Positions 1,071 through 26,752 of a stretch of 30,465 nucleotides of DNA are shown here, piece by piece. Within the stretch, counting starts at the first letter, position 1, and every line of letters begins with the position of its first letter. The translations under genes were made by a program, and so were the position numbers. The DNA comes from Candidatus Latescibacterota bacterium (GTDB lineage: Bacteria; JAAXHH01; JACQVL01): NCBI GenBank assembly GCA_016209865.1, contig JACQVL010000218.1:1-30465 (forward strand), in the 5' to 3' direction. The notes below the pieces were generated by a model. The model saw only the letters and a list, made by a program, of their open reading frames with translations, did no database searches and was not told the DNA's origin.

Positions 1071-1091
1071 TCGTCACTCGTCACTCGTCAC
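1071..1091. repeat. Heptamer array (TCGTCAC)x3
   Basis: Three perfect tandem copies of the 7-mer TCGTCAC lie between the di-iron gene stop and the downstream cupin. The same unit, with single-base variants, recurs at 3984-4004, 8825-8845 and (reversed) 12973-12986. Confidence 0.85.
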
Positions 1092-1103
1092 CGCTTTTAT
1101 CTG

Positions 1104-2144
1104 TCAACAGAGAACCTTCACCGCGCCCTGGTACAGTCCTGCGATGTAGTCCGCGCTGCCCTGATCGAACCCGGCCTGCCGCAAACGATCCAGGAGGTTG
1201 GTCTGCATCTGGCGGTAGAGGTCGCCGACCCGCTGGAGACCGCGTTCGACCTGATCGGGCGCCGACCCGCCGCCCGCAAGCACCGCCATCGCGTGCTGCA
1301 TGAACGGGACGGCGCCAGCCGCCTGCCGCAAGAACGGGACACGGTCCTGCGCGGCCCGGACGAGCTTCGGGACGACCGTCGCGTCGTGCTGGAGGTGATA
1401 CGCGAAATGCGAGATGCCGTAGGCGACGTGCCGGGCCTCATCCTGACGCACCCGGCGATAGATGTGAGCCGTGGCCGGGTCGGGCGCGACCTCTTCGAGG
1501 AAGCGCAGGAGGTCGAGCCATGTCCCTGCACCCAGGAGATGCAGCATGAACGATGCTTCGCTGTAGTCGTCCTGTGACAAGAGGACCCGGAGCGACCACT
1601 CCGTCGCCGCGGAGACGTACTGCAGGCCGCCGCCGTTGGCCAAGGCCCGTTTGGTGAACACTTCCACCTCACGTGCCTCGTCGTGCATCTGGGCGGTCAA
1701 GAACAGGACGACTTCCGTGAAACGCGGGTCGATGCGCGGCAAAAATTTGCTCACTAAGTACAGTGCGAGGGTGGCGTTCTCGATCAAGCACGTGCAGCAC
1801 TGGCAGACCGCACGCTCGACCGCCTCGGGCAACGGCCGCAGCGTCGCCCATTCAACGTCCGTCGTGGCGTTCCACCCCTCCGCGTTGGCCTGCTCCACTA
1901 ACTCCGCGATCGTCTCCGCCCAGACGACCTCTTTCCGGCGGATCGAAAACTCGAACATCGGGTTGGCCGGGTCGATCACCGCCCCGCGCGGCGCGAAGCC
2001 CAGGTCGACGGGCACGTCGTCCGGAATCACGCCCGCGCGGCCAGCGGTCATGTCGCGCAGGTCGATCCCGCGCCCATCACGCGGCGTCACGCGGATGCCC
2101 CAATCTGGGGTGTCCCAGTCCGTAACTTTAGGGAGTTTAATCAT
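1104..2144 (-). CDS. Ferritin-like di-iron oxidase family protein
   Basis: A 346-residue, mostly helical protein with the paired carboxylate/histidine motifs of ferritin-like di-iron enzymes. The likely ligands are E122 (IENATLALYL), D155-E156 with E159 (MHDEAREVE), E196 or a nearby acidic residue in the third helix, and D235-E236 with H239 (QDEARHVAYG). The family includes R2-type radical generators, ligand-binding oxidases and AurF-like N-oxygenases; which reaction is catalysed cannot be decided here. A compact cysteine cluster (C114, C116, C117, C119) sits just before the first metal-ligand helix, which is unusual and could bind metal or form disulfides. The start at 2144 lies 7 bases after the OsmC stop, with no clear Shine-Dalgarno, so translation is probably coupled. 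The genetic partners are a MetE-type methyltransferase and OsmC, suggesting a sulfur, thiol or methyl-group oxidation role (inference). Confidence 0.75.
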   Translation of the reverse strand: MIKLPKVTDWDTPDWGIRVTPRDGRGIDLRDMTAGRAGVIPDDVPVDLGFAPRGAVIDPANPMFEFSIRRKEVVWAETIAELVEQANAEGWNATTDVEWATLRPLPEAVERAVCQCCTCLIENATLALYLVSKFLPRIDPRFTEVVLFLTAQMHDEAREVEVFTKRALANGGGLQYVSAATEWSLRVLLSQDDYSEASFMLHLLGAGTWLDLLRFLEEVAPDPATAHIYRRVRQDEARHVAYGISHFAYHLQHDATVVPKLVRAAQDRVPFLRQAAGAVPFMQHAMAVLAGGGSAPDQVERGLQRVGDLYRQMQTNLLDRLRQAGFDQGSADYIAGLYQGAVKVLC

Positions 2145-2151
2145 GAGACTT

Positions 2152-2670: not shown

Positions 2671-2681
2671 GGTGTGTAAAG

Positions 2682-3857: not shown

Positions 3858-3904
3858 GGACTCCTTTCCTTTTTCATCAGAGATAGATCGCTTACAACTG
3901 CTTT

Positions 3905-3933
3905 AATATAAACTGGACCGGCACTGGAAGCAA
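3905..3933 (-). promoter_or_regulatory. Putative sigma70 promoter for MetE-like operon
   Basis: Read on the minus strand, TTGCTT and TATATT stand 17 bases apart. The -10 matches the consensus at five of six positions and the -35 at three. The predicted transcript start is about 40 bases before the MetE-like ATG at 3857, in an AT-rich pocket of an otherwise GC-rich region. Confidence 0.5.
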
Positions 3934-3945
3934 CGGGATTCTTGA

Positions 3946-3972
3946 TGGATTCCCACGTGGGCAGGGATGACA
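3946..3972. repeat. dRS3-like palindromic repeat
   Basis: An imperfect palindrome centred on CCCACGTGGG, flanked by TGGATTC on one side and GATGACA on the other. Read in reverse it matches the layout of the element at 13062-13092 (GTCAT-TCCC...GGGAATCCA), so both belong to one dispersed family, here in opposite orientation. Confidence 0.6.
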
Positions 3973-3983
3973 CCAGATTTCTC

Positions 3984-4004
3984 TCGTCACTCGTCACTTG
4001 TCAC
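3984..4004. repeat. Heptamer array (TCGTCAC) x3
   Basis: Three units: TCGTCAC, TCGTCAC, TTGTCAC. The array ends 8 bases from the stop codon of the AttH-like gene. The rest of the gap 3858-4012 holds the promoter and palindrome listed above and nothing else I recognise. Confidence 0.8.
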
Positions 4005-4012
4005 TGTTTCTG

Positions 4013-5194
4013 TCAAATCCCTGGCAGAGCCCCGGCATACCCCGTCAGTTCCACGTACCCGACCCCCTTCACCGGCTTGCCGCGATCCCGGCCCTCAACC
4101 CGGACGCTTCCCTCCCAGTAGATCACTCCGGTGACTCCTCCGGTGACCAATTCCTGATCGACGACGGTCGGCGTGACCCGCAGTTCCATCTGCTCCCCCG
4201 GCACGCGGATCACCCAGCCGGACGGGTACACCCCCCGACTGGCCGGGCTTTTCCACGTGCCCGTCCGCTGAATCTGGTACGCCGACAGCGGTAAGTGCGT
4301 CCACGTCCCGTCTGCGTTGACGACCGTCCCGCTCGACATCGGTTCGATCCCCCCGTTCTTCAAGCGCATGACGTACAGCATCAATTCGCGATCATTGTCC
4401 AACTGAATGCTGAACCAGTCCCAGCCCGCCTGCTGGGGAGTCAACTGATTGCTGCCGAATTCATGATCCATCCAGGAGAGGCCGGTGACGGCGAACTCTT
4501 CTCCTTTGATCGTGAGCCGTCCGGACGTGGTCATCCGCGTGATCGAATAGTAGTGCGACGCCCGGCCCGGCCCCGACGCTTTCTGGCTGACCCCGTTGAA
4601 GCCGTGGATGACGGGCGGCTTGGCCTCGATCAGGTCGAGCGCGATGGAGAAGTCACGGCTCGTCGCTTTCAACCGGTGCGTGGTGTGATCCGGTTGCAGC
4701 TCCACAGACCAGTTGCCGATCCATGTCCGGTACCGGTCCTCAGACGCTCCGGCGACTCCAAACACAGGCCGACTGATATTCTCGGTATAGTGGAAAGCTT
4801 TCCCATTCTCATCGGTCACCGCGAGATGGGCGAAGTAGATCATCGACAACGCCCATGTCGAGGGGCTGTCCTTGCGTTTCGGGTCGATCCCGACCCGGAA
4901 GAACGTGAGTTCGTAGCCGAATGTCCGATCACCGCTTGACAGATGGCCGGTGTAATACCACCACTCCGTCCGGTAGGCTGGATGCGCGGCATGATCGCGC
5001 GGGAACTGGAAACGGTAGGGTGGGAGGGCGAGTCTGTACCCATCGGGCGTGAGGCTGTCCGGGACGGCTCGTGCCGTCGCCCGGCTCGGCTTGATGGCGG
5101 ATTGACTGGCTGGCTGAAGGGACGAGACGGCCAGTCCGGTGAGGATGAGGACGATGGTCACCACAAGGATGGATGGTCTCTGTGTGCAGGACAT
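4013..5194 (-). CDS. AttH/CrtC lipocalin-like exported protein
   Basis: A 393-residue protein with an N-terminal hydrophobic segment (residues 8-25) acting as signal peptide or anchor. It is followed by the two lipocalin-like halves of the AttH/CrtC (carotenoid 1,2-hydratase-like) family. Signature stretches are EWWYYTGHL at 77-85, GYELTFFR at 93-100, LSWMDHEFGS at 239-248 and GWDWFSIQL at 257-265. Most family members are not carotenoid enzymes; they sit beside an ABC transporter, as in attEFGH, and probably bind a hydrophobic ligand or lipid in the periplasm. That context is exactly present here, with FtsX permease and LolD-type ATPase upstream on the same strand. The ATG at 5194 has no Shine-Dalgarno; instead a 56-base double-hairpin repeat begins 9 bases upstream. 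The ligand is unknown. Confidence 0.85.
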   Translation of the reverse strand: MSCTQRPSILVVTIVLILTGLAVSSLQPASQSAIKPSRATARAVPDSLTPDGYRLALPPYRFQFPRDHAAHPAYRTEWWYYTGHLSSGDRTFGYELTFFRVGIDPKRKDSPSTWALSMIYFAHLAVTDENGKAFHYTENISRPVFGVAGASEDRYRTWIGNWSVELQPDHTTHRLKATSRDFSIALDLIEAKPPVIHGFNGVSQKASGPGRASHYYSITRMTTSGRLTIKGEEFAVTGLSWMDHEFGSNQLTPQQAGWDWFSIQLDNDRELMLYVMRLKNGGIEPMSSGTVVNADGTWTHLPLSAYQIQRTGTWKSPASRGVYPSGWVIRVPGEQMELRVTPTVVDQELVTGGVTGVIYWEGSVRVEGRDRGKPVKGVGYVELTGYAGALPGI

Positions 5195-5203
5195 GGCGAA
5201 TCG

Positions 5204-5259
5204 GTAGGGGCGAATCTTGTATTCGCCCCGATGTGGGCGATCACAAGGATCGCCCCTAC
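5204..5259. repeat. Double hairpin of the GTAGGGGCGA family
   Basis: A 56-base element bounded by GTAGGGGCGA and TCGCCCCTAC. It contains two adjacent stem-loops: GGGGCGAAT/ATTCGCCCC with loop CTTGT, and GGGCGATC/GATCGCCC with loop ACAAG. The second hairpin is an inverted near-copy of the first, so the loops are complementary and could pair (a kissing interaction) if transcribed. It lies within the ABC operon, between the permease and the AttH-like gene. Confidence 0.8.
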
Positions 5260-5285
5260 TGGCCCCCTGTTTGAACGTGCCAACG

Positions 5286-7886
5286 TTATTCCGCCCGCAT
5301 CGCGTCCGCCGCCACCCGCGTCGCCGCTAATCGCGCGGGCCACAGGCCCGCTAAGACGGCCGTCACGACCATCAGCCCCACCGCCTGTACGAACACCACC
5401 GGATCGACCGTCATCCTGATGCTCCATCCGAAGAACTGTTTGTTGATGACGTAAATCAAGAGAATAGAGAGCGCCACTCCGCACACGCAGCCCATCAGCG
5501 CCCCGATCAGCCCCAGCAATCCGCTTTCGACGAGCACCATTGTGTGCACCTGCCGCCGCAACGCGCCCACCGCGCGCAGCACGCCAATCTCCCGGCCGCG
5601 CTGCAGGATGAGCGCCGTCAGCGTGCTGATGACGCCTAAGACCGCGACGACGATGGCGATCGCCTGCAGAGCATAGGTAATCTGGAACGTCTGGTCGAAC
5701 ACCGCCAGCACGCGTTCGCGGAGGCCGCGGTTGGGCATGATATGCAGGACGATCCGGCGGCCTGCCGCTTCGATGAAGCGGGTACGGACCTGATCGACGC
5801 TGGCTCCGGGTTTCACGTACATCGCCAGGCTCTCGGTTCGTGGGTCGTTCCACAGCCGGGCGAAGACCTGGCGATCCATCAGGATGGCGCCCGCGTCTGT
5901 GCTGTAGTCGTAGAAGACCCCGGCGACCGACAGGACGGCCGTCCCGGTCGGCGTCAGCACCCTCACCGTATCCCCGGCATCCACACGATGGCGGTAGGAA
6001 AAACTCTCCGTCACCACGACGCCGTTCCCGGAACGAGCGCGGGCGATGACCTCAGCCGAGTTCCCGCGGATGAACTGGAGACGGCCATACTGCTGCTGGA
6101 TGTCGAAATCGACGGCAGCGACGTAGGCAATCTTGCCCTCGTAGGTGATCCGGACGCTCCGGTACGTGTTCACCGCCGCGACGCCCGGGATGTGCCGGGC
6201 GATCTCCACCAGGTCGGGCGGCAGGACCGTCGCGCTCCCAGTCACCCGCCGGCCGACCGGCTCGACGTAGAGGTCGCCCCGGATCGTCTGGTTGATCCAC
6301 AGGTCGACCGTCTGGCGGAAACTGCTGACCATGATCGACAGTCCGACCATCATGCCGACCGCCACCATCAGCGCCGCGACGACGACACTCGTCCGCGCCA
6401 CCGCGTCGCGCAGGTAGCGGGCTCCTAACACCCCCTCGATCCCGGCAACCAGGCGCATCAGCGGCCCGGTCAGGTGTTCCATCAGCAGCGTAAATCCAGG
6501 AGCGACGAGCGAGAAGCCCACGAGCAGGAGGAACGCGCTGACGAACCCGCCGAACGGCCGCCGCTGGCTCACCGTCCACAGCGCGACGGCGCTCGCCATG
6601 ACCAGCGTCCCGACGCCCGCCGCCGTCCACCGGCCGATGGACAGGGGCATGGCTTCGATCAGGATGCCCTGTCTGACCGTGACGTTGGGGACGGTGCGGG
6701 CCGCCTCGAACGCGGGCGCCAACGCGGAGAGGAGGGACATCCCGACGCCTAACGCGAACCCCTGGAGAAAGATGACGGGATCGAGGTACAGGTTCCTGGC
6801 GTGGACGACCAGGTAGAGGTCGGTCAGCGTCCGTGAGATCGAGCCGAGGGTGGCTTTGGCCAGCACCGTCCCGGCCGCCAGGCCGACCGCGCTGCCCACG
6901 ACGCCCAAGAACAGCGCCTCGCTCATGAACTGCCCCATCACCTGACGCCGGGTGACCCCGATGCTCCGCAGGATGCCGATCTCGCGCCGCCGGCGCAGGA
7001 CGGCCATGGAGACCGCGTTGAAGATCAGGAACGTCGAGACGAACAGAGCAATGAACGAGAGGGCGGTCAGGCTCAGCCGGAAGGCGCTGACCATGTTCTC
7101 CACCTGCTGAGTCCGCCCCTGAGGCTGGCCGACTTCCGCGTGCGGCGGCAGCAGCGGCTGAAGAGCGGCCTGCACCGCCTCCTTCTGGCCGGGATCGACG
7201 AGCAGGTCGATCCGGTCGAGTGTGCCGTACCGATGGAACACCTCCTGCGCCGTGGCGATGTCCATGATCACCACGTTCCCGCCCATCGCCTGCTGGAATT
7301 CCTGCGACTCGATGATCTGGCGGATCGTCAGGACGACCGGCTGTCCGGCGGAGAGGAGGGTGAGAGCCTCCCCTTGCTTCAGATGATGCCGGTTGGCCAG
7401 CGTCCGGGTGACGGCGACGCCGCGGGGGTCGGCGAGGAAGTCGAGCAGGGCGCTCCGGTCGCCGCGCCGGGGGGACTCGTACCGCGCGAACGGGGCTTCG
7501 GAGAAGAGGTCAACCCCCAGGACGAGCAGTGTCTCGTTGTACGGGCCTCGATCTCCGGACGTGTAGAGACTTTTGCCGTCCGGCTTACCCGGAGCCGCTA
7601 AGGCGTACGTCTGGACGACGGGGGCGGCCGCCTGCACCCCCGGTACCGCGCGCACCTTCGGGTAGATGCGTTCATCGAACCCCTCAGAGTCCGACACCAC
7701 CTGCAGGTTCGCCTTCCCGGCCACCGCATCGACGGTATCGGCGAAGGACGCCAGGGCCGAGTGGTTGGCCAGACGGATGCTGACGAACACCGCCACGCCC
7801 AGCGCGACGCCCAGGACGGTGAGCAGCGTCCGGCCGCGTTCCTGGAAGAGATGCCGGCATGTGATCCAGCGGAAGAGGGGGCGCAT
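5286..7886 (-). CDS. ABC transporter permease with two FtsX domains
   Basis: An 866-residue inner-membrane permease of the LolC/E-MacB type. A first membrane helix near residues 20-42 is followed by a periplasmic core. Then comes FtsX domain 1 at roughly 265-400 (RRRREIGILRSIG coupling helix), a central set of helices at about 415-530, a second periplasmic core, and FtsX domain 2 at about 735-866 (QRGREIGVLRAVGA). This is the fused two-unit form seen in Att/Dev-type exporters, so one polypeptide could pair with an ATPase dimer. It probably moves a lipid-like molecule or lipoprotein out of the inner membrane, with the AttH-like protein as acceptor (inference from context). The ATG at 7886 lacks a Shine-Dalgarno; a four-unit heptamer array ends 7 bases upstream of it. 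Confidence 0.88.
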   Translation of the reverse strand: MRPLFRWITCRHLFQERGRTLLTVLGVALGVAVFVSIRLANHSALASFADTVDAVAGKANLQVVSDSEGFDERIYPKVRAVPGVQAAAPVVQTYALAAPGKPDGKSLYTSGDRGPYNETLLVLGVDLFSEAPFARYESPRRGDRSALLDFLADPRGVAVTRTLANRHHLKQGEALTLLSAGQPVVLTIRQIIESQEFQQAMGGNVVIMDIATAQEVFHRYGTLDRIDLLVDPGQKEAVQAALQPLLPPHAEVGQPQGRTQQVENMVSAFRLSLTALSFIALFVSTFLIFNAVSMAVLRRRREIGILRSIGVTRRQVMGQFMSEALFLGVVGSAVGLAAGTVLAKATLGSISRTLTDLYLVVHARNLYLDPVIFLQGFALGVGMSLLSALAPAFEAARTVPNVTVRQGILIEAMPLSIGRWTAAGVGTLVMASAVALWTVSQRRPFGGFVSAFLLLVGFSLVAPGFTLLMEHLTGPLMRLVAGIEGVLGARYLRDAVARTSVVVAALMVAVGMMVGLSIMVSSFRQTVDLWINQTIRGDLYVEPVGRRVTGSATVLPPDLVEIARHIPGVAAVNTYRSVRITYEGKIAYVAAVDFDIQQQYGRLQFIRGNSAEVIARARSGNGVVVTESFSYRHRVDAGDTVRVLTPTGTAVLSVAGVFYDYSTDAGAILMDRQVFARLWNDPRTESLAMYVKPGASVDQVRTRFIEAAGRRIVLHIMPNRGLRERVLAVFDQTFQITYALQAIAIVVAVLGVISTLTALILQRGREIGVLRAVGALRRQVHTMVLVESGLLGLIGALMGCVCGVALSILLIYVINKQFFGWSIRMTVDPVVFVQAVGLMVVTAVLAGLWPARLAATRVAADAMRAE

Positions 7887-7893
7887 AAGAATA

Positions 7894-7921
7894 GGGGTCA
7901 GGAGTCAGGGGTCAGGGGTCA
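7894..7921. repeat. Heptamer array (GGGGTCA)x4
   Basis: Four units: GGGGTCA, GGAGTCA, GGGGTCA, GGGGTCA. The array is 7 bases upstream of the permease start. Its reverse complement recurs at 8051-8078 with the same variant pattern, so the gap between ATPase and permease is bounded by inverted arrays. Confidence 0.88.
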
Positions 7922-8050
7922 GTAAAGATCGTCGATAAATAGTGAGAATGAATAATCTTCATCTGTTACACAGAACCGGTATCCGCTGCATCATGAAATA
8001 GTATTTCAGCCCAGGACTCGCCCAAGTTTTGTTACGCAACCTTGTTTTCC

Positions 8051-8078
8051 TGACCCCTGACTCCCGACCCCTGACCCC
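8051..8078. repeat. Heptamer array (TGACCCC)x4, inverted partner
   Basis: Four units: TGACCCC, TGACTCC, CGACCCC, TGACCCC. The array lies 3 bases from the ATPase stop codon and is inverted relative to 7894-7921; together they could close a stem of about 28 bases around a loop of about 130. The loop sequence (7922-8050) is AT-richer and shows no gene or recognised RNA. Confidence 0.88.
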
Positions 8079-8081
8079 CAA

Positions 8082-8819
8082 TCATTTCATCTCATCCCTC
8101 ACAACCTGCCCGTCGCGCAACTCCACCACCCGGTCCGCCACCGCCGCCGCTTCCCGGCTGTGGGTGACCAGGACGACCGTCGCCCCGTGCTGCTGTCCGA
8201 GTTGGCGCAGGAGGGTGATCACCTGATCGGCCGTCCGCGAATCGAGGTTGCCGGTCGGCTCATCGGCCAGGACGAGCATGGGGGAGTGGATGAGCGCGCG
8301 GGCCAGGGCGGTGCGCTGCAGCTCCCCGCCGGAGAGGGTATGCGGGCGGGCGTCACGGCGGTGGCTCAGGTCGACTTCTTCGAGCAGTCTCTCAGCGCGG
8401 GCGAGCACCTCGTCCTCCGGTTCACCCGACAGCAGAGCCGGGAGGGCGACGTTCTCTCTGACGGAAAGCGTGGAGAGCAGGTTGAAGAACTGGTACACCA
8501 TCCCGATCTGCTCGCGCCGCAGGCGGGTCAGGTCGTCGTCCGTCATGCGGCTCAGTTCGTGTTCGCCCACCCAGATGCGACCGGAGGTGGGCGTGTCGAT
8601 CCCGGCTAAGAGGTTCAGCAGGGTGCTCTTCCCGGAGCCGCTCCGGCCGACGACGGCGAGACATTGTCCGGATGGGATGTCGAGCGACAGGTGCTCGATC
8701 GCGCGGACGCGCTGGGCGCCCACGGCGTACTCTTTGACCACGTCCACCAGACAGACGGCGAGGGGGCTGGACGGCGGGCGTTCAGAAGCGGGACTGATCG
8801 TACGAGTCGGTTGGATCAT
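8082..8819 (-). CDS. LolD/MacB-type ABC transporter ATPase
   Basis: A 245-residue nucleotide-binding subunit with a complete set of motifs: Walker A GRSGSGKST at residues 58-66, Q-loop MVYQFFNLL, signature LSGGELQRTALARAL, Walker B LVLADEP, and the switch histidine in LVTHS. The sequence style (VKEYAVG, GNLDSRTAD) is that of the LolD/MacB/FtsE export branch. It energises the FtsX permease encoded downstream. I prefer the ATG at 8819; the frame also contains a GTG at 8831, but that GTG lies inside a heptamer repeat. No clear Shine-Dalgarno precedes either codon. The 262-base spacing to the permease is unusually long for such a pair and is filled by inverted heptamer arrays. Confidence 0.9.
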   Translation of the reverse strand: MIQPTRTISPASERPPSSPLAVCLVDVVKEYAVGAQRVRAIEHLSLDIPSGQCLAVVGRSGSGKSTLLNLLAGIDTPTSGRIWVGEHELSRMTDDDLTRLRREQIGMVYQFFNLLSTLSVRENVALPALLSGEPEDEVLARAERLLEEVDLSHRRDARPHTLSGGELQRTALARALIHSPMLVLADEPTGNLDSRTADQVITLLRQLGQQHGATVVLVTHSREAAAVADRVVELRDGQVVRDEMK

Positions 8820-8824
8820 TTTAC

Positions 8825-8845
8825 TTGTCACTGGTCACTCGTCAC
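8825..8845. repeat. Heptamer array (NNGTCAC)x3
   Basis: Three units: TTGTCAC, TGGTCAC, TCGTCAC, placed 5 bases upstream of the ATPase start codon at 8819. The array occupies the place where a ribosome-binding site would be expected. Confidence 0.82.
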
Positions 8846-8864
8846 TGTTGTTCACCTTTCCCCC

Positions 8865-10199
8865 TCAATACTTCTGATACCGATCCCGCAGCCACGTCTG
8901 CCGGGTATCGAGCGGCACTTCCTTCCCGGCGATGATCAGGTGCTTGACGTGCGACCGGATCTGCAGCGGATCCCCATCCCAGACGACGATGTTGGCGACC
9001 TTGCCGGCTTCCAGACTGCCCAGCCGGTCCGCGACGCCCAAGATGTTCGCCGTGGTGATCGTCACCGCCCTCAGCGCCGTCTCAGGAGAGAGACCGTACG
9101 CCACCGACTGCGCGGCGATGTAGGGCAGGTTGCGGACCTGATGGGCGGTTGACGTGGTGAACGCGAACGTCACGCCCGCTTTCTCCAGCCGGCCCGCCAT
9201 CCGGAAGTAGTAATCGTACGGCTGCCGGTCGCTGGGCGCGCGGTACGTCGCATCGAAGAGGATGGGGATATTCCGGCTTTTGATCTCGTCGAGCAGCGGG
9301 TCGGCCTCATCTGCGCCGAGCAGGACGGCCTTCAGCTTGAACTCGTCCGCGATGTGGAGGGCGGCGCGGATTTCCTGGACTTCCCGGCAGAAGAAGATCG
9401 CCGGAATCTCGCCCTTCAGTACCTTGCCGAGCGCGTCTTTGTTAAGGTCCACAGCGGGCGGGGTTTTCTTTTCCGGGGCTTTCTCCCCCTTCTTCGGCGC
9501 TGCGGGCTGCTCCGCTTTGGTCTTCTTGTCGATGTACTCTTGCGCGTCGTACAGCTCCTGACGGATCATCGCCACGATGCCCGGCCGGGTGCCCGGCGGC
9601 GCCCCTCCGGCTCTCCGGGCGCTGTTGTTGATGGAGAACACCAGCCCGGCGGGGGCTTTGACCAGCATCTCGTCGACCACTCGTCCGTTCAGGTTGATGA
9701 TCGCCGTCAGCCCGTCGATCGGGTTGCCCGTCCCCGGTGAGGTCATCACCGTCGTGATGCCGTTGACGCGCGTGACCGGGATGACCTCGCTGTCGGACGC
9801 GATCGCCCAGGCGGTCTCGACGGCCGCGGTGTTCGTCTTCGTCCGCTCCTCCGTGTCATCGGTCATCCGGTCTGCCGGCACTTCGACCAGACCAACCGTG
9901 GTGTTCGGGTCGATCATGCCGGGATAGACGAGCAGTCCACGCGCATCGATCACCTTCACGCCGGCAGGGACAGGAATCCCCTGGCCGATCGCCGCGATCG
10001 TCCCGCCCCGCACGATGACCGTCCCGTTCTCGATGATGCCTTTTGTCACCGTCACCACCCGCCCGCCGGTGATCGCCAGGTCCTGGGCGAAGAGCAAGGA
10101 CGAAGGACAAAGGACGAAGGACAAAGCAAAGACGAAGGACAAAGGATGAAGGACGAAGAGGAACAGAAAGCTGTGCAGATCACGAATTCGGTTTATCAT
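8865..10199 (-). CDS. Exported amidohydrolase-like pseudoenzyme
   Basis: A 444-residue amidohydrolase-fold protein, paralogous to the next gene upstream. The fold is clear (AITGGRVVTV at 42-51, VYPGMID at 91-97, GSLEAGKVANIVVWDGDP near the end). However, every metal ligand of the paralogue is replaced: the HxH histidines by N99 and T101, the third histidine by F270, the fourth by G295 and the aspartate by S350. Hydrolase activity of the usual kind is therefore unlikely; it may bind ligand or partner the active paralogue. A Lys/Pro/Ala-rich insertion lies at about 226-249. The signal peptide (residues 10-38, cleavage after LFA) is encoded largely by a heptamer repeat. The ATG at 10199 follows GAGGGA. 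Both proteins should be periplasmic. Confidence 0.85.
   Translation of the reverse strand: MINRIRDLHSFLFLFVLHPLSFVFALSFVLCPSSLLFAQDLAITGGRVVTVTKGIIENGTVIVRGGTIAAIGQGIPVPAGVKVIDARGLLVYPGMIDPNTTVGLVEVPADRMTDDTEERTKTNTAAVETAWAIASDSEVIPVTRVNGITTVMTSPGTGNPIDGLTAIINLNGRVVDEMLVKAPAGLVFSINNSARRAGGAPPGTRPGIVAMIRQELYDAQEYIDKKTKAEQPAAPKKGEKAPEKKTPPAVDLNKDALGKVLKGEIPAIFFCREVQEIRAALHIADEFKLKAVLLGADEADPLLDEIKSRNIPILFDATYRAPSDRQPYDYYFRMAGRLEKAGVTFAFTTSTAHQVRNLPYIAAQSVAYGLSPETALRAVTITTANILGVADRLGSLEAGKVANIVVWDGDPLQIRSHVKHLIIAGKEVPLDTRQTWLRDRYQKY
10096..10155. repeat. Heptamer array (AAGGACR) inside a coding region
   Basis: Seven near-perfect units of AAGGACG/AAGGACA with one irregular 11-base interruption at 10124-10134. 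It lies wholly within the coding sequence of the degenerate amidohydrolase and encodes the hydrophobic core of its signal peptide (period of seven residues, FVLxPLS-like). Its inverted partner lies at 10254-10281, upstream of the start codon. Confidence 0.9.
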
Positions 10200-10253
10200 A
10201 ATGGTCCCTCACGGTGAATTCAAGACGCCATAACGACAAGAGAGGTTAGCTTT

Positions 10254-10281
10254 TTCGTACTTCGTCCTTCGTACTTTGTCC
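10254..10281. repeat. Heptamer array (TTCGTMC)x4
   Basis: Four units: TTCGTAC, TTCGTCC, TTCGTAC, TTTGTCC. It is the complement-orientation partner of 10096-10155 and fills most of the gap between the two amidohydrolase genes. Confidence 0.85.
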
Positions 10282-10297
10282 TTCATAAATTCTGTCC

Positions 10298-11542
10298 TTA
10301 TTTCGTGATGTCGAAGTACACCTCTCCCTCGATCAGTGTCATCACAACTTTGCTGAAGCTGTCGAACGGATGCCGGTCGAACACCGCTAAGTCAGCGTCC
10401 TTCCCCGCCTCGAGGCTGCCCGTGCGCTTGTCGATGCCCAGCGCCTTCGCCGCGTTGAGGGTGATCATCCGGAGCGCATCCTGTTCCGAGACGTCGCTGT
10501 ACTTGATCGTCTTCGCCGCTTCCTGGTACAGCCGTCGCATGAAATCGTCGCTGTCGGACTTGATGACCGCGTTCACCCCTTGACGCAGGCACATCGCCGC
10601 GTTGTACGGGATGGCGTCGTACGCTTCCCACTTGTACCCCCACCAGTCCGCGAACGTGGCGATGCTCACCCCACGTTTGGCGATCTCATCCGCGACCTTG
10701 TACGCTTCGAGACAATGACTCAGGACATCCACCTTCACCTTGTATTCATCGATAATCTTCATCAACTGGACGATCTCGCTCGCGGAGTAGCAGTGACAAT
10801 CGACGTGGATCTCCCCCTTGAGCACCTTCGAGAGGTTCTCCAGTTGCAGATCCCGCTTCGGGGCCTCCGCCGACTTCTCCCCGTTCTTCACTTTCCGGTC
10901 GTACTCGTCCCACTTCTGCTGGTATTCCTTTGCCTTGTTCAGGTTGTCCCGCAGGACGTAGAAGACGCCCATGCGGGTGGACGGCGTCTGGCTACGATTC
11001 CCGTAGACACGCTTCGGGTTCTCCCCCAACGCCCATTTCATCTGCCGCGGCGCGTCGGGAATGATCATGTTCTCTATTTTCCGGCCGTACTTGAGCTTGA
11101 CCGTCTGACAGACGCCGCCGATGACGTTCGCGCTCCCGTGCATCAGCTTGGCGGTCGTCACTCCGCCCGCGACCGCACGAAAGATGGCGGGGGCATCCGG
11201 GACGATCGCGTCGAGCATGTCGACCTGGGCGGTGACCGGGCTCGTCACTTCGTTGATGTCCCCGTCCAGGGCGATGTGCGCGTGCGTGTCGATGATTCCC
11301 GGCGTGATGAATTGACCGGTCAGGTCGAGGACCTTCGTCCCGGCGGGCGCGTCCACGTTCTGCCCGATCGCGGCGATCTTCCCGTTCCGGATGAGGATCG
11401 ACCCGTTCGGGATCGTCCCGTTAGCGGCGGTCAGAATCGTCGCGCCTCGGAGGAGCAGGTCTTCAGCCCGCGCGGCCGGGAGTAGGAACAGGAGCATGAT
11501 GACAACGGTCATGCTGAGAACGATGCGGCTCTGGAAACGCAT
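10298..11542 (-). CDS. Exported metal-dependent amidohydrolase
   Basis: A 414-residue member of the amidohydrolase superfamily (imidazolonepropionase/prolidase-like branch) with a signal peptide ending at about A26 (PAARA). The metal site is intact: H87 and H89 in IDTHAH, H250 in DCHCYS, H276 in VLSHCLEA, and an aspartate (D330 or D332) in KSDSDD. It should hydrolyse a C-N bond of a small periplasmic substrate with a one- or two-metal centre; the substrate is unknown. An insertion at about 203-233 with charged residues corresponds to the Lys/Pro-rich insertion in the downstream paralogue. The ATG at 11542 follows AAGGAGG. The downstream paralogue starts 98 bases after the stop, so the two are likely co-transcribed and may form a hetero-oligomer. 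Confidence 0.88.
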   Translation of the reverse strand: MRFQSRIVLSMTVVIMLLFLLPAARAEDLLLRGATILTAANGTIPNGSILIRNGKIAAIGQNVDAPAGTKVLDLTGQFITPGIIDTHAHIALDGDINEVTSPVTAQVDMLDAIVPDAPAIFRAVAGGVTTAKLMHGSANVIGGVCQTVKLKYGRKIENMIIPDAPRQMKWALGENPKRVYGNRSQTPSTRMGVFYVLRDNLNKAKEYQQKWDEYDRKVKNGEKSAEAPKRDLQLENLSKVLKGEIHVDCHCYSASEIVQLMKIIDEYKVKVDVLSHCLEAYKVADEIAKRGVSIATFADWWGYKWEAYDAIPYNAAMCLRQGVNAVIKSDSDDFMRRLYQEAAKTIKYSDVSEQDALRMITLNAAKALGIDKRTGSLEAGKDADLAVFDRHPFDSFSKVVMTLIEGEVYFDITK

Positions 11543-12237: not shown

Positions 12238-12951
12238 ATGAACTATCAGGGGAACGTGGTACTGATTACCGGTGGGACGGGCGCGTTGGGGACGGCAGTG
12301 ACGGGCGCGTTCCTCCGCGCCGGCGCGATGGCGGTCGTCACGTACATCATCGACGCGGAGGTCGAGCCGTTCTACGCCGCGGTGAAGGACCGGCGTCCCC
12401 ACGTGACGCTCTACAAGGCGGACGTGACGAAGGAACGGGATGTCCGGCGCGTCGTGCAGAACACGATCAACAAACACGGCCAGATCGATGTCCTGGTCAA
12501 CATCGCTGGCGGGTTCGTCGGAGGGATTCCAGTCGCCGAGACCCCGGAGGAGAAGTGGGATTTCATGCTCAACCTGAATACGAAATCTGCGTTCCTGTGC
12601 TCGAAGGCGGTGCTCCCGCACATGCTCACCCGCCGGGCCGGCAGGATCGTCAACATCTCCGCGCGGGCCGGGCTGCACGGGTCGGCGGGCCTGGGGGCGT
12701 ACGCGGTCGCCAAGAGCGGGGTGCTCATCCTGACGCAAGCTATAGCGGACGAGGTGAAGGATCAGGGGATCACCGTGAACGCCGTCCTGCCCAGCATCAT
12801 CGACACGCCCGCCAACCGGAAAGCGATGTCGGACGCCGATCACACCCGCTGGGTGCGTCCGGAGGACATCGCCCGCGTGATCCTGTTCTTAGCGTCTGAC
12901 GATGCGCGAGCGATCACCGGGGCGGGGATTCCGGTGTACGGACGGGCATAG
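12238..12951 (+). CDS. Short-chain dehydrogenase/reductase
   Basis: A 237-residue classical SDR. It has the Rossmann cofactor motif TGGTGALG at residues 11-18, D62 (ADVT), NIAGG at 88-92, N113, S141 (VNISARAG) and the catalytic Y155-K159 (YAVAK), with the C-terminal NAVLPSIIDTPANR segment typical of the substrate lid. The basic or acidic discriminator after the second strand is not clear-cut, so the NAD versus NADP preference is open. It should oxidise or reduce a hydroxy/keto group of a small molecule. The ATG at 12238 follows GAAGGAG. It has its own promoter and is followed by a repeat-rich gap, so it is probably monocistronic. Confidence 0.9.
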   Translation: MNYQGNVVLITGGTGALGTAVTGAFLRAGAMAVVTYIIDAEVEPFYAAVKDRRPHVTLYKADVTKERDVRRVVQNTINKHGQIDVLVNIAGGFVGGIPVAETPEEKWDFMLNLNTKSAFLCSKAVLPHMLTRRAGRIVNISARAGLHGSAGLGAYAVAKSGVLILTQAIADEVKDQGITVNAVLPSIIDTPANRKAMSDADHTRWVRPEDIARVILFLASDDARAITGAGIPVYGRA

Positions 12952-12953
12952 AT

Positions 12954-12967
12954 TCGGTGGTCGGTAA
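12954..12967. repeat. Heptamer pair, inverted partner of 13097-13124
   Basis: Two units, TCGGTGG and TCGGTAA, immediately after the dehydrogenase stop codon. They are the reverse complement of the units at 13097-13124, so the gap is bounded by inverted arrays. Confidence 0.7.
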
Positions 12968-12972
12968 AAATC

Positions 12973-13024
12973 AGTGACGAGTGACGGGTAAAACTCGGGG
13001 TGCGGGATTCGGGGTACGGGATTC
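12973..13024. repeat. Two further heptamer arrays
   Basis: AGTGACG occurs twice at 12973-12986. The alternating units GGGGTGC, GGGATTC, GGGGTAC, GGGATTC follow at 12997-13024. Three different heptamer types therefore share one 200-base gap. Confidence 0.8.
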
Positions 13025-13066
13025 GGGAAGGGCAGGACAATAAACAGAACCGATCTCTCTGATGTC

Positions 13067-13086
13067 ATTCCCGCGAAAGCGGGAAT
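13067..13086. repeat. dRS3-like palindrome
   Basis: Perfect arms ATTCCCGC/GCGGGAAT enclose a GAAA loop and are flanked by GTC and CCA. The general form ATTCCC-N8-GGGAAT is that of the dRS3 repeat known from Neisseria and similar elements in other bacteria. Its translation on the minus strand gives the well-known spurious peptide WIPAFAGMT. Confidence 0.8.
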
Positions 13087-13096
13087 CCATTTGTTT

Positions 13097-13124
13097 TTAC
13101 CGACCACCGATTACCGACCACCGA
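13097..13124. repeat. Heptamer array (TTACCGA/CCACCGA)x4
   Basis: Units TTACCGA and CCACCGA alternate, two copies each, ending about 26 bases upstream of the likely start of the membrane-protein gene. It is inverted relative to 12954-12967. Confidence 0.85.
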
Positions 13125-13182
13125 CTACTGTTTTCTGAAGGGAGCTTCTCTGACACTCTCCGACGGTATCACTTGGCGAGCA

Positions 13183-15069: not shown

Positions 15070-15076
15070 GAAGGAC

Positions 15077-15176
15077 AGTGATCAGTGGCCAGAAAAAGCA
15101 ATCGAAGAAAGTCCTTGACAGTATCTTCAATTTCCCTCAGTGTAAACAAGAGAAGGATTTTTACTGACCACTGACC
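15077..15176. repeat. Inverted heptamer pairs around a short spacer
   Basis: AGTGATC-AGTGGCC at 15077-15090 faces ACTGACC-ACTGACC at 15163-15176. The 70-base interior shows no gene. The whole gap between the membrane protein and lipoprotein genes (15070-15209) is occupied by this structure. Confidence 0.7.
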
Positions 15177-15209
15177 ACTCCTGAACCGTTCATCCCTGAG
15201 GGCTTCATC

Positions 15210-15991: not shown

Positions 15992-16017
15992 ACCCCTCAC
16001 CGTTCCCTTCCCCACCG

Positions 16018-16094
16018 GGCAGGTGGGCAATGGGCAGTGGGCAATGGAAGCCATTCCCCCGTCTACTGCCCATCTGCCTATCTGCCTACTGCCC
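16018..16094. repeat. Heptamer arrays GGGCART and ACTGCCC, inverted
   Basis: GGGCAAT/GGGCAGT repeats at 16018-16045 are followed by CTGCCC/CTGCCT repeats at 16065-16094 (periods 7,7,8,8). They are mutually complementary and could fold as one hairpin with a loop of about 20 bases, ending 32 bases before the transporter start. Confidence 0.85.
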
Positions 16095-16126
16095 AGGATG
16101 GGAGGGGGCGGGAAGAGGGGCTGGAG

Positions 16127-22453: not shown

Positions 22454-23242
22454 TCATTGGGGTATCGCTACCCCCAGGGTGCTCAGCATAACACGGGTAT
22501 ACCGGTTGAACTTTCCATAGAACCGCCGGACCTCCGGGTCGGGGTGGTCACGCCAGAGTCGCGGCGGGATGAGCGTGACCTCGCTCAACGACGGCCGGTG
22601 CGGATGGCCGTAGTACACCTGGATCGTCCGGCGGACTCGCTGCGTCTTCCGGATGGTGACACCGTGGAGCATGGCGCAGTTGAAGAGAATCGCCGACCCG
22701 GCACGCCCGTAGAAATGGACGACTCCCCGGCGTTCGACCTGCTCAGGCGGGTCGAGGATGTTGCCATCCGCCGGTTCCGGGCTGATCGTGAAGCAGTGCG
22801 TCGTCTCGTCCACGTCGTTCAGGTAATAGATCACTTGCGGATAATCGAGGTGAAGCGGGTGGTCGCGCCAGTGGGGGCGGTCCCGGTGCCACCCGGTGTC
22901 ATGCGTCGTCTCGGAGGGCCCTCGGTGCCGCACCGCCAGTTCCTCGAAGCAGACTGGCCCGCCCATGAGGGCTTCGACCAGACTGAGGACACGGGAATGG
23001 TGGATGGCGACCTCGAAGACCGGCTCGGTCAGGAGCAGGTTGCAGTTATAATCCGGCGTCGTGGTCGTATACCACATGAACGGGTGCTGCTGCCGGTCCC
23101 GGTCGATCGCCGCGTTGAGTTGCGCGACCTCCTCCGGCGATAACACATCCGGCAAGATGACGTAACTCTGCGTCTGGAACGAGGCGATCTGGGCGTCCCG
23201 ATCGTCCGGGGCCGGGATGGAAGGGTCGAGCAGTCGGGGCAT
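22454..23242 (-). CDS. Phytanoyl-CoA dioxygenase-like Fe(II)/2OG enzyme
   Basis: A 262-residue PhyH-family double-stranded beta-helix protein. The iron ligands read H119-x-D121 (WHRDRP) and distal H193 (MLHGVTI), with R202 or R204 (QRVRR) for 2-oxoglutarate. It should hydroxylate an unknown small molecule; bacterial members act on far more than phytanoyl-CoA. I use the ATG at 23242. A longer frame (to a GTG at 23350) translates a heptamer array into the NPKSKI-type peptide and is likely spurious, but no Shine-Dalgarno precedes 23242 because the array abuts it. The gene stands 22 bases upstream of the serine hydrolase and opens the five-gene operon. Confidence 0.85.
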   Translation of the reverse strand: MPRLLDPSIPAPDDRDAQIASFQTQSYVILPDVLSPEEVAQLNAAIDRDRQQHPFMWYTTTTPDYNCNLLLTEPVFEVAIHHSRVLSLVEALMGGPVCFEELAVRHRGPSETTHDTGWHRDRPHWRDHPLHLDYPQVIYYLNDVDETTHCFTISPEPADGNILDPPEQVERRGVVHFYGRAGSAILFNCAMLHGVTIRKTQRVRRTIQVYYGHPHRPSLSEVTLIPPRLWRDHPDPEVRRFYGKFNRYTRVMLSTLGVAIPQ

Positions 23243-23244
23243 GG

Positions 23245-23272
23245 GATTTTCGATTTTGGATTTTGGATTGAA
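23245..23272. repeat. Heptamer array (GATTTTG)x4
   Basis: Four units: GATTTTC, GATTTTG, GATTTTG, GATTGAA. The array starts 2 bases upstream of the PhyH start codon. It is AT-rich, unlike the GC-rich arrays elsewhere, but has the same 7-base period. Confidence 0.85.
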
Positions 23273-23343
23273 CTCTGCGCTGGATGACCGATCAACCGTC
23301 ATGAAAATGCTATCGTCGCGTCCCTCTGTCAAGTCTGTAATTC

Positions 23344-23360
23344 TTTTCACTCTTCACTCT
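23344..23360. repeat. Short heptamer array (TTTTCAC/TCTTCAC)
   Basis: Two clear units plus a partial third, abutting the EcfT stop codon. Confidence 0.5.
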
Positions 23361-24109: not shown

Positions 24110-24164
24110 AGGCTAATGAATTTTGATGAACAAATTCGGTAATCGATTGATTAATGGCGCGGCT

Positions 24165-24192
24165 GTAGGGGCGCAGGATTCTGCGCCCCTAC
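24165..24192. repeat. Perfect GTAGGGGCGCAG hairpin
   Basis: A 12-base perfect stem GTAGGGGCGCAG/CTGCGCCCCTAC with a GATT loop, between the ECF ATPase and T-component genes. It shares GTAGGGGCG with the element at 5204-5259 and is a third copy of that hairpin type. Without a T-run it may act as an RNA stabiliser or partial attenuator rather than a terminator. Confidence 0.8.
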
Positions 24193-24213
24193 TTAACCTC
24201 AACCTGACTTTTT

Positions 24214-25893
24214 TTATCGTGTCAAACACCCGTACAGCTCATCAACCGAGCGTACGGGAACGCCGAGCCTGGCGCCGAGCCGGACTGCCTCCGGCGCTTC
24301 CAGGGCGAGGTCAGCCAGCCGCGCCGGGTCTTTGAAACTCTCCCGGATGTCTCCATCGGCGACGATGCGGCCTCGCTGCATCATCACGCACCGGTGCGCG
24401 TACTCGGCGACGACCCACATCGAGTGCGTCACGATGATGATCGTCCGGCCCGTCTGGTTCAACCGGCGGATCAGGTCGAGGATCGACCGCTGTCCGTGAT
24501 AATCAAGGCCGGTGGTCGGCTCATCAAGGATCAAGATCTCCGGGTCGGACGCCAGGACGGATGCGACGGCGAGCTGCTGCCGTTCCCCCTTCGTCAGGCT
24601 GAACGGGTCCTCGTCTTCCCGTCCGCGTAAGCCCACCACCTGGAGCGCCTCCACCACCCGCGCGTCGATCTCCGGCTCCGGGAGGCCGAAGTTCCGGGGG
24701 CCGAACGCGACTTCCTCCTGGACGGTGTTCGCAAAAATCTGGTGATCCGGGTTCTGGAACACGTACCCGACGCGCCGGCCGAGTTCGGCTAACGACCAGG
24801 AGGACGCCTCCCGGCCGAGCATCCGGATCGACCCTTTCGTCGGGCGCAACAGTCCGTTGAACTGTTTGACGAGGGTCGTCTTCCCGCACCCGTTCTGGCC
24901 GATGATGGCGACGAATTCTCCGCGCCGGATCGTCAGGGAGACGGCGTCCAGCGCGGCCGGCCCGGCGTCGTACTGATAGCTCACCGCGTTCACGTCGATG
25001 ACCGGCTCGTGATCGGCCAGGTTGGAGATTGGTTGATGCAATCGCGCCACGGCGGCCGGATCGGCCCGCCATCCGGCATCCTGGATGATGTGGAACGCCG
25101 TGTCAACGTCGAGTCCGGTCGTCGGGAGGCCAAGCCGTCTGAGGAGGACGGTCGTCTGCAGCGGCCGGACCCCGTTTGTTTCGAGGAGGCCGGGGTCGCT
25201 CAGCAACTCCTGCGGCCGCTCATCCGCCAGGATGCGCCCTTCGCGCATCAGCACCAACCGGTCGGCCGTCAGCACATGTTCCGTCTCGTGCTCGACGAGG
25301 ATGATCCCCTGGATTTCCTGGCGGAGCGCCCGCGCCAGATGAAAGACGTCCCGTTTCCCGATGGGGTCGAGGTCGGTCGTCGGTTCGTCCATGACCAGGA
25401 TCATCGGCCGGCTGACGAGGATGGAGGCGATGGCCAGGCGCTGCTTCTCCCCGCCGGAGAGGGTGGACGGGTCACGGCCTTCAAACCCGGTCAGGCCGAC
25501 CCGGCCGAGGGCCTCCCTGACCCGGTCCCTCATCTGTTCATACGGCACGGCGAAGTTTTCCAGGCCGAACGCGACTTCCAACTCGACATTCGTCGAGAAG
25601 AGTTGTGCCTCGAAATCCTGGAAGACGAGTCCCACCCGCCGGGCGACGTCGTACACCGGACGGCCGGTCATGCGTTCTCCCAGGATCGTCAGCTCTCCGG
25701 ATAGGGTTCCCTTGATGAAGGCAGGGATGAGACCGTTCAGGCACCGGCAGAGGGTCGATTTGCCCGCGCCGGTCGCCCCGATGATGGCGGTGAACTCGCC
25801 GGCCTGATGGGTATAGGTGATGCCGTGAAGCGCCGGATGGGAGGCATGCCGGTAAGTAAACGAGAGGTCGCGGATGTGGAAGAGAGGCTGCAC
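24214..25893 (-). CDS. Fused ECF transporter ATPase (EcfA-EcfA')
   Basis: A 559-residue tandem ABC ATPase. Domain 1 has Walker A GATGAGKST at 39-47, signature LSGGEKQRLAIAS at 145-157, Walker B ILVMDEP and H202. Domain 2 has Walker A GQNGCGKTT at 332-340, a divergent signature LTKGERQQLAVAS at 433-445, Walker B ILILDEP and H490. The two halves replace the separate EcfA and EcfA' subunits and energise the EcfT/S complex. The non-canonical second signature implies that the two ATP sites may not be equivalent. The GTG start at 25893 overlaps the last base of the S-component stop (TAGTG), so expression is coupled. Confidence 0.92.
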   Translation of the reverse strand: MQPLFHIRDLSFTYRHASHPALHGITYTHQAGEFTAIIGATGAGKSTLCRCLNGLIPAFIKGTLSGELTILGERMTGRPVYDVARRVGLVFQDFEAQLFSTNVELEVAFGLENFAVPYEQMRDRVREALGRVGLTGFEGRDPSTLSGGEKQRLAIASILVSRPMILVMDEPTTDLDPIGKRDVFHLARALRQEIQGIILVEHETEHVLTADRLVLMREGRILADERPQELLSDPGLLETNGVRPLQTTVLLRRLGLPTTGLDVDTAFHIIQDAGWRADPAAVARLHQPISNLADHEPVIDVNAVSYQYDAGPAALDAVSLTIRRGEFVAIIGQNGCGKTTLVKQFNGLLRPTKGSIRMLGREASSWSLAELGRRVGYVFQNPDHQIFANTVQEEVAFGPRNFGLPEPEIDARVVEALQVVGLRGREDEDPFSLTKGERQQLAVASVLASDPEILILDEPTTGLDYHGQRSILDLIRRLNQTGRTIIIVTHSMWVVAEYAHRCVMMQRGRIVADGDIRESFKDPARLADLALEAPEAVRLGARLGVPVRSVDELYGCLTR

Positions 25894-26693
25894 TACAGCA
25901 ATAACGCTCCCACGACAAGCAGTCCGATCAGTGGCATCAGACTCGTGCCCACACTCGTTCCCCAGCGGGGAATATCGGAGAGCGAGAGCGACCAGTGCGC
26001 TCCGCCCGGCAGGTTCAGCGTGAACGTCTGGGATTCAGTCACCCCCAGGGAGATGACGATCCCCAGGATCAACCCGCCGAGCACGGCGCCCCAGAGGAAC
26101 AGGTGGGCGAGGTAGGGAAGCCGTCCTCCCCACAGGTCTTCTGTCTCCATCACATCAGTGTACAGCAGACCCCAGCGTTTGATCCTCGGGTACAGGATGG
26201 GCAGGAGCAGGGGGCCGAGCAGGCTGGCGGTGACGAAATTGTTCAGTCCGATAAGCGGGCCGAGAATATGGAAGGGTACGAAGCCTAACATGTCCAGGCC
26301 CCAGCTAATCTGCACGGCACAGGCCAGGCTGGCCAGGAGGGAGACGATAAAATATCTGGCCAGCCGTCCGGCCGACCACGGGATGGGATCACTGCTCGAC
26401 AGCGTGCGCCAGGCCCGGTAGGGGAAGTAGCCGTACCAGAAGTTCCCCAGCATCCCGAAATAACTGCCCAGCCCGGAGGTGCCCCCTAAGAGGTCGCCGA
26501 TCAGGTTGCCGAAGGCGGAACCCCAGGCGGCGGCTGGCCCGAACATCAACGAACAGATCACCGGGAGAACGTTCGCGGGACGGAGTTCCGTGATACCAGG
26601 GATGAGAGGGAGGAGTTTGAACGGAATCAAAACGGCGGCATACAGTGCCGCCGTCAACGCCACCAGGACGACCATCCTGGTGTATTTCCACAT
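25893..26693 (-). CDS. ECF transporter S component, substrate unknown
   Basis: A 266-residue membrane protein. The first half has the S-component style: ALTAALYAAVLIPF at 12-25, LRPANVLPVICSLMFGPAAAWGSAFGNLIGDLLGG in the 38-71 stretch, and NFWYGYFPYRAW at 84-95. More helices follow at about 112-135, 142-166 and 195-216, and a further helix at about 250-265. It is longer than typical S components (about 180-200 residues), with an extra C-terminal module. The substrate cannot be read from sequence, and no riboswitch was seen in the short upstream gap. The ATG at 26693 replaces the longer frame from 26831, which translates repeat sequence. It is the first gene of S-A-T. Confidence 0.8.
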   Translation of the reverse strand: MWKYTRMVVLVALTAALYAAVLIPFKLLPLIPGITELRPANVLPVICSLMFGPAAAWGSAFGNLIGDLLGGTSGLGSYFGMLGNFWYGYFPYRAWRTLSSSDPIPWSAGRLARYFIVSLLASLACAVQISWGLDMLGFVPFHILGPLIGLNNFVTASLLGPLLLPILYPRIKRWGLLYTDVMETEDLWGGRLPYLAHLFLWGAVLGGLILGIVISLGVTESQTFTLNLPGGAHWSLSLSDIPRWGTSVGTSLMPLIGLLVVGALLL

Positions 26694-26731
26694 TGTGATG
26701 ACTTCCCGCACGGGCGATCTCCGGGACCGGC

Positions 26732-26752
26732 CGATTGCGGATTGCGAATTTG
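26732..26752. repeat. Heptamer array (GGATTGC-like)x3
   Basis: Three units: CGATTGC, GGATTGC, GAATTTG, in the 94-base gap before the S-component gene. A partial inverted match (ATTCCGCAAT) occurs at 26774-26783. Confidence 0.65.

Follow-up and report, generated by a model that had tools for sequence, protein, structure and literature searches.

Why do so many gaps between the genes of one bacterial contig hold short tandem repeats with a period of seven nucleotides, and why does each gap appear to keep a repeat unit of its own? The question was raised by a stretch of 30,465 nucleotides from a Candidatus Latescibacterota bacterium (assembly GCA_016209865.1, contig JACQVL010000218.1, positions 1 to 30,465 of the forward strand), which is called the window below. 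Heptamer repeats have been known for decades in cyanobacteria, Xanthomonas and Beggiatoaceae, and were explained separately in each case, by quadruplexes, translational control or slippage. The explanation we favor, with a probability of roughly 0.6, is that the heptamer arrays of the window are the arms of non-coding hairpin elements, dispersed over the genome and subject to turnover within the gaps, in the manner of REPINs (REP doublets forming hairpins), MITEs (miniature inverted-repeat transposable elements) and BIMEs (bacterial interspersed mosaic elements).

A class of repeats with period 7

The genome of the window (G000; 3.75 Mb in 356 contigs, 83% complete) was examined through a sample of 61 stretches, 609 kb in total with the window included, and counts given below refer to this sample unless another genome is named. 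The stretches were taken partly because their contigs matched a gap of the window, which biases the density of arrays somewhat upward; the comparison between periods should be free of this bias. Arrays were detected genome-wide by ungapped X-drop extension with a score of at least 12, those of the window were listed by Tandem Repeats Finder (TRF) at period 7 (or 14), and genes were called with a home-made finder based upon codon usage (523 genes, 88% of the DNA coding).

The X-drop search gave 114 arrays of period 7 and none in shuffled sequence. The other periods gave 2 (period 4), 0 (5), 0 (6), 12 (8), 5 (9), 0 (10), 3 (11) and 1 (13), and exact runs were likewise in excess at lags 7, 14 and 21. 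The initial annotation had proposed an over-represented period-7 class with many arrays in the window, to be abandoned if period 7 were no commoner than periods 6, 8 and 9; the class is real by this comparison, and TRF placed the window arrays at the positions reported, along with some short ones. After merging, 124 of 156 arrays (~80%) were intergenic, as had been claimed, even though 88% of the DNA is coding, while 19 overlapped a gene edge and 13 lay inside a predicted gene; of 272 gaps measuring 40 bp or more, 82 held an array. Point variants were present inside the units, in agreement with the single substitutions described earlier, and no gene in the window accounts for the class.

Arrays as fixed-size modules from shared families

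About a dozen unit families were found, which read on the G-rich strand as AGTGACG, GGATTTT, GGTGGTC, GGGGTCA, CGGGGTT, AAGGACG, GGGCAGT, AGTGGTC and some rarer ones, and most were common to many gaps. The pattern AGTGACNAGTGACNAGTGAC for the TCGTCAC unit matched 345 times in the genome, and within the window alone this unit occurs at 1070, 3983 and 8823, so that units are not private to one gap. The suggestion of a separate unit for each gap is therefore half correct: neighbors in one gap had the same unit in 23 of 33 pairs, compared with 16% for random pairs and 2 of 16 for arrays flanking one gene, but the same dozen families recur from gap to gap. Nor is the set specially GC-rich, as it had been described, with GGATTTT and AAGGACG among the commonest families. 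Stretches of 28 nt that were identical, variants included, were found at up to six loci.

Array lengths peaked at 24–25 and 30–33 nt (3.4 and 4.4 units), with almost no arrays above 38 nt, and a Rayleigh test of length modulo 7 gave R 0.44 (p about 1e-12). The array ends had a fixed phase as well, most AGTGACG arrays beginning with AGTGAC and finishing with GAG or GAGT. The view of the arrays as open-ended tandem repeats thus kept its period and lost its open end: they resemble modules of fixed size (24 or 31 nt), without the broad spread of unit number that is a trait of slippage-type long simple sequence repeats (SSRs).

These measurements bear on the possibility that the arrays are ordinary long SSRs born independently in each gap, where polymerase slippage would favor 7-nt units because this is the stretch of DNA that the enzyme holds. 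In many bacterial genomes no class of long SSR is more frequent than heptamers, and the polymerase-length idea is published (both as cited in PMC4679880 and PMC4692102); the point variants inside units also fit. Slippage does not predict the quantized arm length, the cutoff near 38 nt or the shared families with their identical 28-nt variants, nor does it predict the same-unit inverted partners with one polarity, the multi-copy elements with conserved loops, and the slot swaps reported below. We consider it improbable as an account of the arrays, although slippage, or the length held by the polymerase, may be the origin of period 7 within an arm.

The preference for four units raised a second possibility, that the arrays are G-quadruplex elements in which four units supply four G tracts. 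Rehm et al. 2015 (PMC4692102) tied this preference to quadruplexes for the GGGNATC and GGGGA(C/T)T heptamers of Xanthomonas and Nostoc, and the length peaks, gene-adjacent position, polarity and inverted pairs seen here all have counterparts in that paper. The quadruplex-capable unit does not: a canonical G3 motif was present in only 21 of 156 arms, and the 112 arms without any GGG or CCC still peaked in length at 30–33 nt (54 arms) and 23–26 nt (33 arms). Quadruplex formation therefore cannot account in general for the preference for four units, and as an explanation of the class it is scarcely tenable.

Inverted pairs, polarity and predicted folding

We examined if an array had a same-unit inverted partner within 300 bp, inward or outward, using arrays from other gaps as control queries. 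An inward partner was found for 62 of 156 arrays and an outward partner for none, while the control queries gave 29 of 771 inward and 8 of 771 outward. The G-rich arm came first (left) in 20 of 20 clear pairs. Six pairs lie in the window (Table 1), where the arrays had been noted singly and their relation as inverted partners overlooked; each gap has a theme of its own since the two arrays in it form the arms of a single inverted pair. A panhandle between arrays on the two sides of one gene was unsupported, given the 2 of 16 unit matches above. In G013, a genome of the same order, one heptad pair (TTTGTAC / GTACAAA; L088, 1813-1914) has the pyrimidine-rich arm first, the reverse of the usual polarity.

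When all gap arrays were considered, lone ones included, the G-rich strand led away from the nearest gene toward the gap in 103 of 126, that is, sense after stop codons and antisense before start codons, which is the rule given by Rehm et al. 2015. The usual distance of an arm was 0–7 nt to a stop codon and ~20 nt to a start codon. In L020, L021, L025 and other stretches the arrays overlap the 3' end of a predicted gene by ~12 nt and seem to provide its stop codon (TGA within AGTGACG).

A-rich or T-rich tracts at both ends of the arms lengthen the stem. Predicted RNA folds paired arm to arm in 36 of 41 elements (median z -3.7), the loops of the pairs measured 12–201 nt, and the sequence after the C-rich arm was T-rich in 29% of cases, compared with 8% of random intergenic 12-mers.

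These features could mean that the hairpins are kept by selection as terminators or insulators, a role that is compatible with mobile hairpin elements, whose function it would then be. Read-through from the upstream gene would give a transcript with both arms, hence a hairpin and U residues ahead of the next gene, whereas a transcript starting in the loop would carry one arm only; the content of a gap could vary as long as the hairpin stayed. The closeness of arms to stop and start codons, the T-rich sequence after the C-rich arm and the folds argue for such a role, as does the retention of hairpins in sister-species slots while the sequence changes (below). The loops, however, are long for intrinsic terminators; the T tracts occur on both sides of an arm, complementary to the A tracts of the other arm, and may merely extend the stem; many gaps have no arm or one arm only; and period 7 and the fixed arm length are left unaccounted for. 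Selection as a terminator or insulator seems to us rather unlikely to explain the class, and it is possible that it accounts for slots keeping a hairpin despite sequence change.

Composite elements and dispersed copies

The gap at 12952-13182 of the window is a nested composite, in which GGTCGGT, AGTGACG and CGGGGTT modules are followed by a loop with the palindrome CATTCCCGCGAAAGCGGGAATCCA and then by ACCGACC. Its inner part has copies at several places of the genome with up to 98% identity and differing right arms. After the arrays were masked, 97 of 290 gaps shared sequence with another gap, largely through the palindrome CATTCCCGCGAAAGCGGGAATCCA.

This palindrome (ATTCCCGCG...CGCGGGAAT), which we take to be dRS3-like, is a dispersed module separate from the arms and without heptad periodicity, often found in heptad gaps and inside loops. 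It occurs in the window at 13066-13089 (ATTCCCGC...GCGGGAAT) and, in degenerate form, at 3947-3971, and in ~30 or more gaps of the sample, often in heptad-hairpin loops. Another dispersed palindrome, of the GTAGGGGCG...CGCCCCTAC type, lies at 5204-5259 and 24164-24193 of the window in gaps without heptad arrays, and the copy at 5204-5259 has near-identical copies in L020, L066 and L033.

Hairpin turnover between sister species

Turnover was assessed in BP_15 (G022) and BP_17 (G019), metagenome-assembled genomes (MAGs) of two sister species of Pyrinomonadaceae (Acidobacteria) with about 93–96% identity over aligned stretches. In 372 kb of BP_15 an inward partner was found for 145 of 160 arrays and an outward partner for 4 of 160. 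BP_15 loops were alike in 15.6% of same-unit pairs and in 1.2% of different-unit pairs. An 84-bp element of BP_15 matched more than 30 places in BP_17 at ~82–94% identity, most of them on both strands as expected of a palindrome, and composites with one hairpin nested in another recurred in these genomes.

The comparison covered 109 orthologous gaps whose flanks were 96% identical; BP_15 had a hairpin in 37 of them. An alignable copy was kept in 16 of the 37, another copy with the same unit was present in 7, and a different unit family in 8; the remainder were found in one species only or were doubtful, with two simple absences. Hairpin gaps were alignable less often (19 of 37) than hairpin-free gaps of at least 40 bp (50 of 62; Fisher p 0.003), and in several swaps the difference in sequence covered roughly the whole interval between stop and start codon. 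At L333 (11615-11707), for example, arms of AAGTTTCAGGTTTC stood where BP_17 has GTGAATC arms, in elements of 84 and 85 bp between matching gene ends. Swaps outnumbered simple absences, which makes the replacement of a resident hairpin likelier than a pair of independent insertions. Both genomes are MAGs and it is possible that assembly error lies behind the swaps, although these involve short elements between collinear flanks.

At one slot of BP_15 (L345, 15411-15587) a hairpin is found where BP_17 (L355) has ~0.9 kb of other DNA, so that larger insertions or deletions may likewise occur at hairpin slots.

Relatives and other phyla

The AGTGACN pattern was confined to the genome of the window among 16 genomes of its phylum. 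Two relatives of the same order, G011 and G013, had few period-7 arrays, with other units, and genomes of a further genus of that order (g3) had no exact-register period-7 arrays in the stretches sampled, one of these samples being all N. In 100 kb of G013 (L088-L092) there were 8 period-8 and 7 period-7 arrays, unlike the genome of the window.

When GTDB genomes were scanned with one pattern, at least 110 stretches matched. Among the matches listed were Acidobacteria, Chloroflexi, Cyanobacteria, Verrucomicrobia, Bacteroidetes, Nitrospirae, Proteobacteria and others, and although some matches were other kinds of repeat, 42 of 110 loci had three or more period-7 arrays. The 274 arrays among these matches had an inward inverted partner in 107 cases and an outward one in 17. 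The paired heptad hairpin design thus recurs in many unrelated bacteria.

Weighing a mobile hairpin element

A complete element, as we envisage it, would be a non-coding, palindromic, interspersed unit of ~60–200 bp, made of a G-rich array of ~3.4 or 4.4 heptads, a loop of ~10–200 nt and an inverted C-rich copy. It would occupy the non-coding DNA that separates a stop codon from the following gene, with nested or mosaic forms possible. Having many related copies over the genome, it would behave as non-autonomous mobile DNA, and its content would turn over, such that the orthologous slot in a sister species would often retain a hairpin of another unit family. Of this picture, the pairing of inverted arms, their polarity and fixed length, the dispersed and nested copies, and the differing contents of orthologous slots were observed. 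Dispersal would presumably have come about through copying or transposition rather than through the independent birth of each copy, the swaps would presumably be replacements and not double insertions, and the folded hairpin, as DNA or RNA, is probably what is recognized or selected.

Several observations weigh against such an element. In the genome of the window about 60% of arrays had no partner at the threshold used, and most loops were not conserved within a unit family. In its variant pattern an arm there resembled its partner no more closely than it did arrays of the family at other places (rank 0.51); the arms are therefore not simple recent copies of each other, and simple arm-to-arm copying is unsupported in this genome. 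Target-site duplications were not found around pairs or single arrays, direct repeats outside the arms being no more frequent than in the control. Between the sister species, clean empty sites were seldom seen (2 clear cases) and lacked precision, and turnover was shown only in MAGs of a distant phylum, the genome of the window having relatives of the same order but no comparable sister species. The RAYT gene (Y1_Tnp, PF01797) was absent from the genome of the window (83% complete), BP_15 and BP_17, and was found in controls.

The absence of this gene from three array-rich genomes led us to reject a RAYT/Y1 (IS200-like) transposase as the mover. Two representative elements were also searched for on plasmids, with no matches.

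Another way to obtain a strict period, a fixed array length and a fixed end phase would be a cooperative protein that contacts 7-bp repeats, each arm being its array of binding sites and the protein setting both the period and the number of units. The plasmid omega protein, of the ribbon-helix-helix type, binds DNA at heptads, and by analogy a protein of this kind could be imagined here. The dozen units per genome and the differing families at orthologous slots would require many such proteins or a loose specificity, and no candidate gene was identified; we think it most improbable. Telomerase-like addition was considered on form only.

Likeness to known systems

The inverted hairpin elements proposed here are closest in form to several described systems, none of which they fully match. 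The heptamers of Rehm et al. (PMC4692102) share with them period 7, the four-unit preference, intergenic location near gene ends, polarity and inverted pairs; in Xanthomonas, 70 and 75 inverted (convergent) pairs per genome were reported, with polarity at gene edges, and context was usually kept between two species. They differ in that the present genome has ~12 families, most of them without the ability to form G3 quadruplexes, and multi-copy composites with loops, and in that the unit family is swapped at orthologous slots in the sister Acidobacteria. The TAACTGA repeat of Beggiatoaceae (MacGregor 2015, PMC4679880) is a single unit, almost only direct, with one indirect repeat, whereas the present arrays are largely inverted pairs of many units. 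It and the cyanobacterial short tandemly repeated repetitive (STRR) sequences share with our arrays the intergenic direct heptamer repeats and a sporadic occurrence across phyla. The resemblance to cyanobacterial heptamers noted in the initial annotation is thus correct, as a likeness in form only, in that both are direct heptamer repeats in non-coding DNA.

REPINs are inverted REP (repetitive extragenic palindromic) doublets with a spacer, extragenic and multi-copy, with a predicted hairpin and the doublet as the unit (Bertels and Rainey 2011, PMC3116915). The inverted doublet with spacer and the predicted hairpin are found here as well. The palindromic REP with its GTAG tag is not, since single arms had a median self-fold energy of -0.2 kcal/mol and GTAG or CTAC was near only 13% of them, and the RAYT gene is missing as described. 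BIMEs and MITEs are likewise short non-coding elements in gaps, mosaic or with terminal inverted repeats. As in MITEs, the elements are multi-copy with terminal inverted repeats; unlike MITEs they lack target-site duplications, their terminal repeats are internally periodic, and no related insertion sequence was identified, although a search for a parent element was not made.

These comparisons suggest a common hairpin design for the known heptamer repeats, in which arm length and polarity are fixed. Tentatively, and with the odds somewhat against it, one class of heptad-arm hairpins could extend over many phyla, with STRR, GGGNATC and TAACTGA repeats as members, and be swapped slot by slot through a mechanism that is neither RAYT nor slippage. 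The novelty lies in the spread of such hairpins over many phyla and in the swaps at individual slots; paired heptamer repeats as such were already known. The two Acidobacteria, in which near-identical genes are separated by hairpins that differ as a whole, offer a testable system for the questions that are opened, namely what copies or swaps the hairpins and what sets the period.

Features of the window

The heptad features of the window are listed in Table 1.

Table 1. Heptad arrays, arms and associated palindrome in the window.
Feature	Position	Strand	Remarks
Lone heptad array, AGTGACG (G-rich strand)	1070-1091	-	12 nt from stop of gene 1104-2144(-); TRF
Lone heptad array, AGTGACG family	3983-4005	-	8 nt from stop of gene 4013-5194(-); TRF
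Left G-rich arm, GGGGTCA family	7893-7922	+	6 nt from start codon of gene 5286-7886(-); RNA fold z -4.9
Right C-rich arm, partner of 7893 arm	8048-8079	-	2 nt from stop of gene 8082-8831(-)
Lone heptad array, AGTGACG family	8823-8847	-	TRF
Left arm, AAGGACG family, two blocks	10096-10158	+	TRF
Right arm, partner of 10096 arm	10254-10284	-	TRF
Outer left arm GGTCGGT of nested composite	12954-12970	+	Directly past stop of gene 12238-12951(+)
Second, inner left module AGTGACG, two units	12972-12986	+	Right partner missing here, present in copies L003 and L004
Third, innermost left module CGGGGTT/CGGGATT	12995-13028	+	Module and loop recur elsewhere in genome, up to 98% identity
Palindrome CATTCCCGCGAAAGCGGGAATCCA, dRS3-like, in loop of composite	13066-13089	.	
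Outer right arm ACCGACC of nested composite, partner of 12954 arm	13094-13128	-	TRF
Left arm AGTGATC/AGTGGCC, degenerate, ~two units	15076-15092	+	Directly past stop of gene 13183-15069(+)
Right arm ACTGACC, partner of 15076 arm	15163-15179	-	TRF
Left arm GGGCAGT/GGGCAAT	16017-16047	+	TRF
Right arm CTGCCCA/CTGCCTA, partner of 16017 arm	16063-16095	-	
Lone array GGATTTT	23244-23269	+	Adjoins predicted start codon of gene 22454-23242(-); TRF
Left arm GATTGCG, two units (initially given as GGATTGC)	26733-26749	+	
Right arm ATTCCGCAAT, short, partner of 26733 arm	26774-26783	-	

No known RNA families were found in the window. Two tandem amidohydrolase genes (8865-11542) have the AAGGACG hairpin between them, and this hairpin extends into the predicted start of the gene at 8865-10199(-). 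A SpoVR-family gene lies at 27478-28998; among 18 relatives searched, matches were found in G011 only and were partial, which possibly represents a lineage-specific gain or loss.

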